Source of the DNA: Thermoproteota archaeon | Lineage (GTDB): Archaea; Korarchaeota; Korarchaeia; Korarchaeales; Korarchaeaceae | Length of the DNA: 34,775 bases | Direction of reading: 5' to 3' | Assembly (NCBI GenBank): GCA_015522685.1 | Contig: WALU01000048.1 | Span: forward strand, 1-34,775 | Shown: one piece after another, positions 8,033 through 15,098 of the stretch | How positions within the stretch are numbered: position 1 is the stretch's first letter | Layout of the letters: every line of letters starts with the position of its first letter | Notes under the pieces: generated by a model | Told to the model about the DNA's origin: nothing | Databases searched by the model: none | Seen by the model: only the letters and a program-made list of their open reading frames with translations | Translations under genes and position numbers: made by a program

Positions 8033-10747
8033 ATGGGTCTAGGAGATCCTATAGAAATAAAATTCCTCATTGATAGAGGTTATGTGAGGAAGAAATGCCC
8101 TAAATGTGGCGAGTATTTCTGGACGCTGGATCCAGACAGAGAAACTTGTGGTGAAGCTCCTTGCGAACCTTATTCCTTCATAGGAAGAAGAATATCGGAT
8201 AAGAGCTTAGATGAAGTAAGAGAAGATTTCTTAAGGTTCATGGAATCTAAAGGGCATACAAGAATAGGTAGATATCCTGTCATAGCCAGATGGAGGGATG
8301 ATCTTTTTCTCACAAGCGCTTCTATAGTTGATTTTCAGCCTTTTATAACAGCAGGCCTCGTTCCACCTCCAGCAAATCCTCTCACCATATCGCAGCCATG
8401 CATTAGGCTAAAGGATGTAGATAAGGTAGGACCGACAATGGGCAGGCATCTCACTATATTTGAGATGATGGCCCATCATGCTTTTAACTCCAAAGAGAAG
8501 TTTATTTACTGGAAAGACAGGACCGTTGAACTCTTTCATGAGTATGCAACTCGAGTTCTGGGAATACCTGAAGAAGAGATAATCTACAAGGAGGGAATAT
8601 GGAAAGGAGGAGGTAATGCAGGGCCTGATCTAGAACCGATAGTTAGAGGGTTGGAGATAGCCACACTAGTTTTCATGGAATACAGAGGTGAGGACGGGAA
8701 ATATGTGCCAATGGATACCAAAGTGGTGGATACGGGATATGGCCTCGAGAGAATAACTTGGCTTCTAAGAGGAGATCCTACCGGATTTCATTCGGTTTAT
8801 GGTACCCTAGTTGATGAATTCCTGTCTGAACTAGGCATAGAGCAAATCGATGGTAGTCTGCTTAACAAATACTCAGAGGTATCCTCTATCTTAAGAGAAC
8901 TCGAGAAAGGTGAGAGAGTAGATACTCTTAGGAGGAAAGTGGCTGATATACTGGGAGTGGATTTCTCCTACCTCGACTCTAAGATAGGACCCTTGGAGAG
9001 GGCCTTCGCATTGCTCGATCATACCAAGGCCATAGCCTTCATGCTCGCCGATGGCCTAGTCCCTTCTAACGTAAACGAAGGCTACTTGGGAAGGTTGCTT
9101 ATAAGGAGATCACTTAAAATCCTCAGACTCCTTGGATCAGAGATACCTCTATCGGAATTTGTTGCAAAACAGGTCGGCTTTTGGTCCAGAGAGGGCTTCC
9201 CAGAGCTGGAGGATGCTCTCGGTAGAATCGTGGAGATAACGAACCTCGAAGAGAAGAGGTACAGTGAGATATTAATGAAAGGAGAGGGCATTGTTAGGGA
9301 CATTGTAAGGAGTAAGAAGAAACTGAAGCTGGAAGATCTAATAATGCTCTATGATTCGCACGGAGTTCCTCCTGAATTACTTCAAAATTTGGCTAATAGC
9401 CTCGGAGTAGACGTTGAAATTCCAGATAACTTCTATGAGCTAATAGCTGCTAGACATGAATCTAAAAAGCCAGAAGCTCCAAAGCTACCCTCATTCATCG
9501 ATCAACTGGATAATTATCCTCCTACAAGGCTCCTCTATTATCAAGATCCCTACAAGATGGAGTTCAATGCTACGGTAGTAGGGCATATAAATGGCATGGT
9601 GATTCTAGATTCAACGGCCTTCTACCCGGAGGGCGGTGGACAGCCAAGTGATGTAGGCAAACTTATTTGGAGCAATGGAATCGCAGAAGTATCTAAGGTT
9701 GAGAAATATAAGGGAAGAATACTTCACAAAGTAAGTGAGCTACCCTCTGTAGGAGAAAGGATACATGGCAAGGTAGATGAAGCTAAGAGACTTGCAAGAA
9801 TGAGGCACCACACTGCAACTCATATAATTTTAGAAGCTGCAAAGCAAGTACTGGGCTCTCATGTTTGGCAATGGGGCGCTCAAAAGGGAGATGAAGAAAG
9901 CAGGCTGGATATTACCCACTATAAACCAATATCTGCTGATGAATTGAAGGAGATAGAGATTCTGGCTAATGAGGCAGTTATGAAAAACATTCCGGTTAGG
10001 GCCTTCTGGCTCCTTAGAACGGATGCTGAAAAGAGATATGGCTTCATATTATATCAAGGAGGAGTAGTCCCCAATTCCGTCCTCAGGATAGTAGATATAG
10101 AAGGATTTAACGTCCAGGCATGTGGAGGGACCCATGTTAAGAGAACAGGAGACGTTGGGGTTATAAAGATATGGAGAGCTAGGAGAATACAGGATGGCGT
10201 GGTAAGACTTGTATTCTCAGCCGGGAAGCCAGCTGTAAAGAGATTGATTGGTGCCTACTCTAACCTAAAAGAGATTGCCAATGAACTGGGGGTAGATGAG
10301 GAAAATGTGGCCGAGACGTTCAGTAATGCTATGAAAGAGCTTAGGGATTTAAGGAGAGAAGTCAGGAAGCATAAGAGAGAGCTTGAGGAAACTAGAATAA
10401 AGCAAGCATTATCTCAACCTAAACTCGTTGGGAACTACAATGTTTCTGAAGTAGAACTAGTCTATCTAAGCTTGGATGACGGTATAAAGATAGCTGACAA
10501 GCTAGCTGGCAGTGAAGAGAGGATTATAATCCTCAAGAAGCTTGGAGGCAATAGAGCAATGATAGCTCTTCTAGTAACAGGAGGCTTGGACTCGAGAATT
10601 CATGCAGGTAATCTAGTTAAGGGAGTCACAGGAGATCTCGGAGGCGGTGGTGGAGGAAACTCAAGGCTTGGTAGAGGATCTATACCAAAGGAGAAGCTTG
10701 CTCGCTTCATAGAGGTGATCCTTAAACGATTAGGAGGGAGCTTATAG
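8033..10747 (+). CDS. alaS: Alanyl-tRNA synthetase, archaeal type
   Basis: AlaRS charges tRNA-Ala and clears mischarged Ser/Gly. The archaeal form has an N-terminal zinc knuckle, seen here as C22-x2-C25 with C39 and C44. The class II catalytic core follows (GRYPVIARWRDD, GPTMGRHLTIFEM, DTGYGLERI). The editing domain shows HHTATH at residues 592-597 and CGGTH at 697-701, its zinc ligands. The C-terminal DHHA1/oligomerisation domain ends with a Gly-rich motif (GDLGGGGGGNSRLGRG). The length of 904 aa is normal for archaea. The gene lies 47 nt after rpl12, a conserved archaeal pairing, and has a GAGG site before its ATG. Confidence 0.98.
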   Translation: MGLGDPIEIKFLIDRGYVRKKCPKCGEYFWTLDPDRETCGEAPCEPYSFIGRRISDKSLDEVREDFLRFMESKGHTRIGRYPVIARWRDDLFLTSASIVDFQPFITAGLVPPPANPLTISQPCIRLKDVDKVGPTMGRHLTIFEMMAHHAFNSKEKFIYWKDRTVELFHEYATRVLGIPEEEIIYKEGIWKGGGNAGPDLEPIVRGLEIATLVFMEYRGEDGKYVPMDTKVVDTGYGLERITWLLRGDPTGFHSVYGTLVDEFLSELGIEQIDGSLLNKYSEVSSILRELEKGERVDTLRRKVADILGVDFSYLDSKIGPLERAFALLDHTKAIAFMLADGLVPSNVNEGYLGRLLIRRSLKILRLLGSEIPLSEFVAKQVGFWSREGFPELEDALGRIVEITNLEEKRYSEILMKGEGIVRDIVRSKKKLKLEDLIMLYDSHGVPPELLQNLANSLGVDVEIPDNFYELIAARHESKKPEAPKLPSFIDQLDNYPPTRLLYYQDPYKMEFNATVVGHINGMVILDSTAFYPEGGGQPSDVGKLIWSNGIAEVSKVEKYKGRILHKVSELPSVGERIHGKVDEAKRLARMRHHTATHIILEAAKQVLGSHVWQWGAQKGDEESRLDITHYKPISADELKEIEILANEAVMKNIPVRAFWLLRTDAEKRYGFILYQGGVVPNSVLRIVDIEGFNVQACGGTHVKRTGDVGVIKIWRARRIQDGVVRLVFSAGKPAVKRLIGAYSNLKEIANELGVDEENVAETFSNAMKELRDLRREVRKHKRELEETRIKQALSQPKLVGNYNVSEVELVYLSLDDGIKIADKLAGSEERIIILKKLGGNRAMIALLVTGGLDSRIHAGNLVKGVTGDLGGGGGGNSRLGRGSIPKEKLARFIEVILKRLGGSL

Positions 10748-10761
10748 AGGAGGCATCCCCG

Positions 10762-11415
10762 CTGGTTTATCTCCTCTTCATTTTAGGCTTTCCTGATGCT
10801 ATAGAGATAACTGCAAGGAGGCTATCCCTGAACAAGAGGGAGGCTATAGCTCTATCCAAGTTAGTAAGGTCTCCCCGCGAGTCCCTTAGGAACTCACTCA
10901 AAGTCGCTCCTCTATCCTGCGCTTCAGATAAGGATCTTGGAATAGATGGTTTCAACGTTCTAATAACAGTAGAAAGCGCTCTTCAGGGAAAACCTGTGTA
11001 TACATGCTCAGATGGATTAGTTAGAGATCTTAGCCTAGCTTATTCGTCGTATAAACCATCAGACAGATTTGAGGAGGTTACTAAGATGTTAAGAGAGCTC
11101 CTAGCTGAAATCAAGCCTAAGCCTAGATCAGCGACTCTGTATCTAGATGCCCCTATATCCAAAAGCGGGCTTATGGCTCTCCATATGAGGAAGATCCTTG
11201 ATATAAAGGTAGTTACATCGAAGCATGTAGATTCCGATCTACTAAAGCATGAGGTGGTGGCTAGCAGTGATTCCTTAGTGATCTCAAAGGCTAAATGTAT
11301 AGTTGACTTGCCTAGAGAGATTTTAAGGAGAGTCAATATATCTCCGATACCATTATTTCCATCTAATGGTCTGGTTGAGGGGTTGATACTTGATAGATCT
11401 TCCAAGGACAGTTGA
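10762..11415 (+). CDS. DUF434 (COG2454) protein with a probable CTG start
   Basis: The frame contains the family core, GIDGFNVLITVESALQGKP followed by VYTCSDGLVRDLS, and runs to the stop at 11413-11415. The biochemical role of DUF434 is unknown; the acidic residues suggest a nuclease-like or nucleotide-binding fold, which is only a guess. The first ATG/GTG/TTG in frame is GTG 10996, in the middle of the conserved core, while the frame stays open and family-like back to 10726. A strong GAGGAGG site at 10747-10753 sits 8 nt before CTG 10762, so I place the start there. ATA 10744 or ATT 10729 are less likely. It starts just past the alaS stop and its last 26 bases overlap mtnA. Confidence 0.75.
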   Translation: MVYLLFILGFPDAIEITARRLSLNKREAIALSKLVRSPRESLRNSLKVAPLSCASDKDLGIDGFNVLITVESALQGKPVYTCSDGLVRDLSLAYSSYKPSDRFEEVTKMLRELLAEIKPKPRSATLYLDAPISKSGLMALHMRKILDIKVVTSKHVDSDLLKHEVVASSDSLVISKAKCIVDLPREILRRVNISPIPLFPSNGLVEGLILDRSSKDS

Positions 11416-12421
11416 TTTTGATGGAAACAAGGTCATTCTAGTAGATCAAAGGAAGCTTCCAGAAAAACTTTCATTCTTGGAATGTGAAAGCGTGGATTGT
11501 GTGGCAAACGCCATAAAAAGCATGGCTGTTAGAGGAGCCCCTGCGATAGGAGCCGCCGCAGCCTTTGGTATGGCCCTCTATGCATCTAGGTTCGAAAGTG
11601 GTAGGGAGAATTTCCTGAGTGGATTGAAGACGGTAGCGGAAAAATTAAAATCGACTAGACCTACGGCTTACAACCTATTTTGGGCTGTAGACCGAGTTAT
11701 TAGCAGTATTAAAGGAGCAACTGATCTAGACGAGATGAAGCGTAGGGTATTAGAGGGAGCTAGGAGAATCGCTGAGGAAGATGTTGAGAGCAATAGGAAG
11801 ATAGGAGAGAATGGATATAGACTGATAAAGGAGGGATATAGGGTTATGACTATATGCAACGCTGGCTCATTGGCTACAGTATGGTATGGCACTGCTACAG
11901 CGCCTATGTATAGAGCTCATGAGGAAGGAATAGAATTCAAGGTAATAGCCTTGGAGACAAGACCAGTACTTCAAGGAGCTAGAATAACTGCTTTTGAATT
12001 AAACAGAGCTGGTATCCCAGTTAAGCTCATAGTGGATGGGGCAGCAGGCTATGTCATGTCCAATCTAGGTGTAGATCTAGCGATAACTGGAGCCGATAGG
12101 ATACTAGCAGATGGTACGACATTTAATAAGATAGGGACCTACTCACTTTCAATTCTAGCAAAAGAGCATGGAGTCCCCTTCTATGTAGCAGCTCCTACAT
12201 CGACGTTTGATCTTAAATCGAAACCTAAGGATGTGAGAATAGAAATGAGGGACCCTAAGGAGGTTGCCTTCATAGGGAACAAGAGGATAGCTCCCGAGGG
12301 AGTGGAAATACTTAATCCTGCATTCGATAGAACTCCTCCAGAGAACATAACTGGAATAATAACTGAAAAAGGAGTAATAATGGGATCGTTGGCAGAAAAA
12401 ATTAATAGACTGCTGAAATGA
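11390..12421 (+). CDS. mtnA: S-methyl-5-thioribose-1-phosphate isomerase (MtnA/aIF2B-like)
   Basis: The eIF2B-alpha/beta/delta-like fold is plain (MAVRGAPAIGAAAAFGMALY; ETRPVLQGARITAFEL). The M1Pi catalytic Cys is C156, in CNAGSLATVWYGTA, and the catalytic Asp is D236, in ITGADRI. It converts 5-methylthioribose-1-phosphate to the ribulose form in methionine salvage; archaeal homologues can also isomerise ribose-1,5-bisphosphate, but the RGAPAIG N-terminal motif favours M1Pi. The length (343 aa) is typical. The TTG start has a GAGGGG site 7 nt upstream, inside the end of the DUF434 gene, suggesting coupled translation. Confidence 0.9.
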   Translation: MIDLPRTVDFDGNKVILVDQRKLPEKLSFLECESVDCVANAIKSMAVRGAPAIGAAAAFGMALYASRFESGRENFLSGLKTVAEKLKSTRPTAYNLFWAVDRVISSIKGATDLDEMKRRVLEGARRIAEEDVESNRKIGENGYRLIKEGYRVMTICNAGSLATVWYGTATAPMYRAHEEGIEFKVIALETRPVLQGARITAFELNRAGIPVKLIVDGAAGYVMSNLGVDLAITGADRILADGTTFNKIGTYSLSILAKEHGVPFYVAAPTSTFDLKSKPKDVRIEMRDPKEVAFIGNKRIAPEGVEILNPAFDRTPPENITGIITEKGVIMGSLAEKINRLLK

Positions 12422-13445: not shown

Positions 13446-13568
13446 GAAAGCTTTTAATCAATTTCTTCCAGGAGATAGTCAATTATTTTTAAGGCTGCAT
13501 AATCGAGAACTTGGTGATCAGTATTTAGATTTGAACCTGAGAAGGAGGAAGGCAATCAGGAGTATAAA

Positions 13569-15098
13569 TTGAGACTCAATCCTAAATCTGAAGATCGCAT
13601 AATAAAACTGGCCACTCAACTGAATTACAGGCTAAATGAAGGAGGGGGGGAAGCATTTTATGAGCTTGGGATATCTAATGATGGTCTTCCAGTTGGTATA
13701 ACAGAGGAGGAAGCAAGAAGATCGCTTGAGATCATAGACAGAATTGTTGAAAGCTTAGGCGCTAAATATATGATAGTTAGAAAGGAGAAGGCTACAAGGG
13801 GATATGTATATGAACTACTCATAAGAAAAACAATAGATGTGCCTCCGATTCAGATATCCGTCGTGATGCTCGGAAACGTGGATGCTGGTAAATCAACCCT
13901 TAAGGGAGTTCTAGTATCAGGGATGCTAGATGACGGCGATGGCTTAGCTATGAGCCAAGTAGCTAGATACTTACATGAGCTTAAGTTCAGAAGGTCTTCA
14001 TCAATCACTTATCATATACTCGGGTTTGATGATCTTGGAGCATCAGTTAACGATGGACTTCAAGGCTATAATGAATCAGGAATCTATCTAAGATCATCAA
14101 AAGTTATTGTTTTGGTCGACCTAGCCGGCCATGAAAGGTACCTTAAAACGACGCTGAAAGGGATCTTAGGGTCAATTCCCGACTATGCAGCCTTGATAGT
14201 TGCAGGGAACGCTGGACCAATAGGTAGCTTCAGAGAGCACCTAGGAATCTCTGTAGCTCTGGGCATTCCTTCCTTTATCGTAATCACAAAGATAGATATG
14301 ACACCTAAGGAAGTACTCTCCTCCAATATAAGAAAAGCAACAGAGATACTTAAGCTTCCAGGCGTGAATAAAATACCTTTTCCCGTGAAAAGTGAGAACG
14401 ATTGCGCTATAGCAGCTAGAAATATGCCTCATGGAAGAGTAGTTCCTATATTTCTCATATCAAATGTAACTGGCGAAGGATTGGATCTACTTAAGAGATT
14501 CCTGAATCTCCTTCCTCCGAGATTGAATTGGTCTGATAAGGGAAAGGAGAAGTTTCTAACGTATGTGGATGACAAGTTTAATGTGTCTGGAGTAGGTGTT
14601 GTAGTCTCTGGATTAGTTGAATCAGGATCTCTCTCAATAGGCCAGAGAGCTTTGCTCGGCCCATTCGATGATGGGAGCTTCAGGACAGTGAGAGTGAAGT
14701 CTATCCATGTTAGCAGAGTCTCTGTGGAAAGGGCTACAGCAGGCCAATTTGCAACATTCGCAATAACTAACGTAGAATATGAGGAAGTAAGAAAAGGAAT
14801 GGTTCTTCTCAATATAGATTCTAAGCCTAGAGCTGTAAGAATTTTCAAGGCAAGCATAAGAGTGCTTCACCATCCAACGACAATAAAGGTCGGATACGAA
14901 CCAGTTATACAACTTAGAACTATAAGACAGCCGATTAGGTTAATTCAATCCCCTAGGCCATTCCTCAGGACTGGAGATAAAGCAGAAGTAGTCTTTAAGT
15001 TCATAAGAAGACCTGAATATATTAGAGCAGGAGATACATTTGTTTTCAGGGAAGGTAAGACGAAAGGTCTCGGCGAGATAACTAAAATATTGGAGTAG
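13569..15098 (+). CDS. GTPBP1/GTPBP2-like translational GTPase (COG5258)
   Basis: This is an EF-Tu-superfamily GTPase of the GTPBP1/GP-1 group. A ~95-residue N-terminal region precedes the G domain: G1 GNVDAGKST 102-110, G3 DLAGHERY from D184, G4 TKID 240-243. Two beta-barrel domains follow (about 330-509), like EF-Tu domains 2 and 3. Eukaryotic relatives act in ribosome rescue and mRNA turnover; the archaeal role is not settled. The TTG start is backed by an AGGAG site 6 nt upstream, and there is no ATG between the in-frame stop at 13515 and the conserved region. A ~50-nt leader follows a TATA-like box near 13483. The helicase gene follows 6 nt downstream. Confidence 0.9.
   Translation: MRLNPKSEDRIIKLATQLNYRLNEGGGEAFYELGISNDGLPVGITEEEARRSLEIIDRIVESLGAKYMIVRKEKATRGYVYELLIRKTIDVPPIQISVVMLGNVDAGKSTLKGVLVSGMLDDGDGLAMSQVARYLHELKFRRSSSITYHILGFDDLGASVNDGLQGYNESGIYLRSSKVIVLVDLAGHERYLKTTLKGILGSIPDYAALIVAGNAGPIGSFREHLGISVALGIPSFIVITKIDMTPKEVLSSNIRKATEILKLPGVNKIPFPVKSENDCAIAARNMPHGRVVPIFLISNVTGEGLDLLKRFLNLLPPRLNWSDKGKEKFLTYVDDKFNVSGVGVVVSGLVESGSLSIGQRALLGPFDDGSFRTVRVKSIHVSRVSVERATAGQFATFAITNVEYEEVRKGMVLLNIDSKPRAVRIFKASIRVLHHPTTIKVGYEPVIQLRTIRQPIRLIQSPRPFLRTGDKAEVVFKFIRRPEYIRAGDTFVFREGKTKGLGEITKILE

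Follow-up and report, generated by a model that had tools for sequence, protein, structure and literature searches.

A probable ACG start codon for the DUF5616 gene that overlaps alaS in one genus of Korarchaeaceae

Start codons that differ from AUG by a single base are known from bacterial infC, which uses AUU, and from yeast ALA1 and some viral and plant genes, which use ACG. For archaea, a review of initiation lists AUG, GUG and UUG as the only start codons (PMC7531240), and translational coupling in prokaryotic operons has been reviewed separately (PMC12548453). The window, a 34,775-nt stretch of DNA (contig WALU01000048.1), harbors alaS at 8033-10747 on the forward strand (alanyl-tRNA synthetase, 904 amino acids, TIGR03683 with 1102 bits), which ends with a TAG at 10745-10747. 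The likeliest translated extent of the following gene is 10726-11415 on the same strand, 229 codons from an ACG to a TGA at 11413-11415, based on a PF18481 match, orthologues, alignment and a structural model. This gene lies in the -1 frame relative to alaS and overlaps it by 22 nt. Its 3' end is overlapped by an mtnA-like gene for S-methyl-5-thioribose-1-phosphate isomerase with a TTG start (11390-12421, forward strand).

The preliminary description had assigned the downstream gene to DUF434. This holds as a loose name for a gene of the family type: the predicted protein matches PF18481 (DUF5616) over residues 67-197 with 118 bits against a cut-off of 27.6 (E 4e-34, profile positions 5-139 of 140), whereas PF04256 (DUF434) gave no match up to E 10 in a profile search of the window protein, in which DUF5616 was the sole match. 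The motif IDGFNVLI lies within the protein, and its IDGFNVL portion presumably recalls NYN/PIN-like nucleases. Orthologues were present in 21 of the 26 genomes sampled from the class, which indicates a real gene. An AlphaFold2 model of the protein read from the ACG reached a pLDDT of 88.8, with values of about 90 for residues 1-10, and its first helix spans residues 4-19. Judged by this model, part of the fold would be lost with a start at CTG 10762 or at GTG 10996. Foldseek comparison of the model with the PDB returned nothing at E <= 0.001, and a profile search of solved structures gave a single match with an E value of 0.27.

Reading of the frame from 10726 to 11415 on the forward strand confirmed the earlier observation that no ATG, GTG or TTG precedes GTG 10996, which is codon 91. 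Taken alone, the absence of NTG over 90 codons is not decisive. It exceeds chance, since the other congeners conserve the N-terminal sequence that precedes any NTG and since five of the 13 congeners with this junction (the window, G014, G011, G009 and G012) contain no NTG within the first 18 codons. These 13, which include the window, belong to the class sample; a further congener, G002, differs. A search for related loci over the genome contigs returned an 80% relative as its sole match. A frameshift or sequence error, which had been considered as an explanation, is excluded, because the same bases occur at the junction in 13 separately assembled genomes, one of which (G009) consists of one contig with 1,590,757 bases.

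All 13 congeners read ACG ATT AGR AGG GAD YTN RTN GAR from codon 1 on, with ACG ATT AGR AGG GA invariant. In the window the ACG is located at 10726-10728, the ATT at 10729-10731 and the AGGAGG at 10732-10737, all on the forward strand. The pattern GRGGTG-N8-ACG ATT AGR AGG GA is complete in 12 genomes, each of which contains it a single time. Likewise, GGTG-N8-ACGATTAGRAGGGA was found once in each of 12 genomes, in none of the 14 others of the class and in no control; in G010, the 13th congener, the contig ends inside this pattern. An in-frame stop is present at codon -1 or -2 in the window (TAA, 10723-10725, forward strand, immediately 5' of codon 1), G014, G013, G009 and G007. Due to these stops the gene must start at the ACG or later in the window, G014 and G013, while those of G009 and G007 also permit a start at codon -1 (GAA or AGC). 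No NTG fits the conserved N-terminus downstream of the stop. In G002, the most divergent congener, the aligned codon is AAA and no NTG follows for 27 codons, so that neither ACG nor NTG is available and the ACG is not universal in the genus. At the same junction of G002 (locus L014, about 1470-1585) an ATA overlaps the alaS TAG as ATAG, as in the window and in G019 (L020).

Lineages outside the genus show where a normal start is located. The GTG start of G017, from another genus (MQVKVLLSAAREL), and the ATG start of G038, which shares only the domain (MRINVLCEAAEDL), both fall on codon 1 when the sequences are aligned by eye without gaps. The ATG of the sister genus g2 (G016 and G020) lies one codon earlier (MPVRIDLV) and forms a TGATG with the end of alaS. 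Three outgroup lineages hence start at the position of the ACG or one codon before it, and the outcome that the preliminary description had named as refuting, relatives whose protein begins at the equivalent of GTG 10996, was not seen. In G018, a member of another genus, the aligned position is a CTG (CTG AGG ATT GAG CTC GTG; L019, 1501-1520) with no NTG upstream, and its gene may start at either this CTG or the GTG. The comparison establishes that the gene is real and conserved, that no NTG is available to it at its N-terminus in the window and that outgroup starts map to the site of the ACG.

A Shine-Dalgarno-like sequence, SD1 (GAGGTGATCC, 10712-10721, forward strand), precedes the ACG and over 10 nt matches the complement of the 16S tail (..GGATCACCTCC), which was read in G009 and G011. 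Its core GRGGTG is invariant at the same distance from the ACG wherever it can be read in the genus, including the wobble base of an alaS Val codon. Calibration on 400 kb of G009 gave a peak at 5 nt between GGTG and the start codon with a tail to 8 nt. The ACG is positioned 8 nt and the ATT 11 nt from the GGTG of SD1. This spacing favors the ACG over the ATT, although it falls short of proof, as 8 nt is the edge of the calibrated range and the numbers there are small.

The bases of the overlap were also analyzed for changes that alaS would tolerate. On a genus tree of 13 taxa, of which 12 have alaS, 490 ungapped third positions (about 500 codons) changed 3.4 times on average, and only 27 of them (5.5%) never changed. 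Five successive unchanged third positions occupy alaS codons -6 to -2, from the A of the ACG on, and overlap codons 1-5 of the DUF5616 gene; no other run of even three exists among the positions compared. The Arg codon of alaS over the ACG (10727-10729, forward strand) is CGA in all 13 species, whereas CGA makes up about 1-4% of Arg codons; in the counted stretch each species has about 46-71 Arg codons, of which one or two are CGA, and in most species this CGA is the sole one. No other column among 13 invariant alaS Arg columns keeps an identical codon, and none of the others has CGN in more than a single species. The same is true of the Val GTG within SD1, which alone among 11 invariant Val columns has an identical codon. 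As alaS itself leaves the bases of the run free to vary, something other than alaS holds them. The A and C of the ACG fall outside the AGRAGG that precedes codon 7.

The constraint in the DUF5616 frame begins exactly at the ACG, and codon -1 varies between TAA, AGC, AAC, GAG, GAA and GGG. Downstream of it, the DUF5616 protein is unaffected by the changes seen in codons 3 and 6 and by most of those in codons 5 and 7, although several of them alter the AlaS protein (G/E, S/N/I). The run of invariant third positions and the constancy of the CGA together indicate that the ACG is held by selection in the downstream frame. The near-cognate codon is kept beyond what the other coding explains in 13 of 13 congeners with the junction, and G002 differs. 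We infer the exact position of the start from species that share ancestry; kinship alone is unlikely to explain the run, given about three changes per silent site on the tree. As judged from these alignments, both the ACG and the SD1 core are shown to be under selection beyond alaS coding.

On the basis of these comparisons, translation of the DUF5616 gene probably starts at the ACG 10726-10728. The ACG has one mismatch to AUG and would be used as the start codon, the ribosome being positioned on it by the strong SD1 sequence GAGGUGAUCC (10712-10721) within the last alaS codons, and the initiator tRNA presumably inserts methionine as the first residue. The base that follows codon 1 is an A, so that any NTG at this position makes a TGA in alaS; a T at 10727 gives a stop. 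With an NTG at codon 1, alaS would lose five to six residues from its end (R-L-[GE]-G..). Evolution appears to have left the ACG unchanged because a normal start there would shorten alaS. The ACG keeps both frames open and appears to have been fixed before the 13 species diverged. In the likely history, g2 retains the ordinary TGATG and a shorter alaS, while in the present genus the T became a C and alaS reads on to the TAG. A start of low efficiency and the overlap may tie the output of DUF5616 to translation of alaS.

The second SD-like sequence, AGRAGG, and the GTG that eight species harbor at codon 7 count against the ACG. They would fit a start at codon 7 (AUA 10744-10746 in the window, GUG in eight of the 13 congeners), driven by the AGRAGG 6 nt upstream and by ribosomes fresh from termination at the end of alaS. 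The stop/start overlap at this codon (TAGTG, ATAG) is the usual layout of coupled genes, and the alaS genes of G002 and G019 likewise end in ATAG. However, codon 7 is ATA in the window, GTA in G014, GTC in G011 and GTT in both G009 and G012, which would require that GTG was lost three times independently and that AUA, GUA, GUC and, twice, GUU then served as starts. Such a pattern suits a Val/Ile codon within a protein. In addition, the constancy of the A, C and A in ACGA and of the SD1 wobble bases would be left unexplained, and the outgroup starts fall at codon 1. Initiation at codon 7 is thus unlikely. Somewhat less likely still is a near-cognate start at codon 2, the AUU at 10729, which none of the 13 congeners has changed even though several of these species seldom use it for Ile. 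Both of its Ts are largely forced by a Leu TTA of alaS, the preceding ACG would have no cause to be conserved, and the distance of 11 nt from SD1 is beyond the calibrated peak.

Two further explanations are very improbable. C-to-U editing of the mRNA would convert ACGA into AUGA and thereby create the DUF5616 start and an alaS UGA stop together; the sequence is exactly one such change from the common AUGA overlap, with a genomic C in 13 of 13 congeners. The tail of alaS past the site is open in all species, though, and to our knowledge no mRNA editing of this kind occurs in archaea, which counts against it. A -1 frameshift from alaS, with SD1 as stimulator, would produce an AlaS-DUF5616 fusion. 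The gene does lie in the -1 frame, and bacterial -1 frameshifting is known to be stimulated by a Shine-Dalgarno sequence some 10 nt upstream. Direct reading of the 22-nt overlap (10726-10747) revealed no slippery heptamer (X XXY YYZ), no supported structure accompanies the site and the outgroup genes possess start codons of their own, so that the fusion was rejected. An RNA element was rejected as well: RNAalifold gave no convincing conserved fold over the site, only a weak consensus of -4.1 kcal/mol with one pair showing a compensatory change.

Least probable of all is the start proposed in the preliminary description, CTG 10762-10764 behind GAGGAGG 10747-10753 on the forward strand: both elements are present as described, with suitable spacing and in phase with the DUF5616 frame, but only the window and G014 carry a CTG as codon 13 (five congeners have CTC, G013 has AAG and the rest have CCN), GAGGAGG is confined to the window (GAGAGAG in G014), and the amino acids encoded upstream of this CTG, with which the predicted first helix begins, are conserved; about the first half of that helix would be deleted. 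The idea of non-canonical initiation in that description is supported, whereas the site it chose is unconserved and contradicted by relatives.

aIF1 disfavors non-canonical starts (PMC6237735), which counts against initiation at the ACG. The factor (SUI1) is present in 24 of the 26 genomes, including that of the window, which refutes its absence as a cause of the odd start. The initiator-like tRNA of G009 has the usual CAU anticodon; no odd initiator tRNA was seen in this genome, and its tRNA set looks ordinary.

Orthologous pairs from G009 and G011 (1216 in total) were compared for signs of coding sequence conserved ahead of the first NTG, and a strict test left three genes: the DUF5616 gene, Kae1 and a GTPBP1-like GTPase. 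The starts of the latter two in other congeners were examined by pattern searches only. In the GTPase, GTA or ATA stands before a conserved FRLE in eight congeners including the window (GTA in seven, ATA in one), and the window gene (13513-13569 and 13569-15098, forward strand) contains no NTG at its conserved N-terminus. Its GTA at 13521 follows a GGTGAT, and the first NTG, TTG 13569, lies within conserved sequence. A TATA-like sequence about 30 nt upstream of the GTPase start suggests a very short leader. In Kae1 (KEOPS), ATA or ATC is found in the pattern searches where G005, G006 and G013 have GTG, and five other congeners have an NTG one codon earlier. An AUA/AUC start is therefore a candidate for Kae1 in several species, including the genome of the window (G000, contig C38, about 23560, reverse strand; G009, 1457323, reverse strand; G011, contig C1, 240893, forward strand). 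Both genes are leads for near-cognate initiation. Taken together with DUF5616, they might reflect a relaxed start-codon rule in the genus (ACG in DUF5616, GUA/AUA in the GTPase, AUA/AUC in Kae1) that would be stable and inherited despite aIF1 and an ordinary initiator tRNA, a tentative and rather doubtful generalization.

If initiation at the ACG is real, it would represent a naturally selected ACG start codon common to 13 species of one archaeal genus, and an example of a gene overlap that forces a start codon away from NTG. It would also provide a clean natural case for the joint setting of start-codon stringency by aIF1 and the Shine-Dalgarno sequence. Gene finders restricted to NTG would start the DUF5616 gene too late, at a TTG around codons 19-20 in G014, G011, G009 and G012. 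In the window they would choose codon 91, and more than one third of the protein would be lost.

The DUF5616 gene of the window resembles other members of the PF18481/DUF434 family in its PF18481 domain and its IDGFNVLI motif, whereas members outside the genus have canonical starts wherever these can be judged (G016, G017, G020 and G038). With ATGA, TAATG and TGATG overlaps, the last of which is found in g2, it shares the arrangement of two co-oriented genes that overlap by a few bases. It differs from them in that ATGA has become ACGA in this genus, alaS continues for another five to six codons and no NTG is available there to the downstream gene. Like the AUU of infC and the ACG of yeast ALA1, the proposed start would be a codon one base from AUG that is kept by selection. 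In contrast to these, it would be an archaeal ACG that serves an internal operon gene, is led by a Shine-Dalgarno sequence and is maintained through dual coding with the upstream gene.
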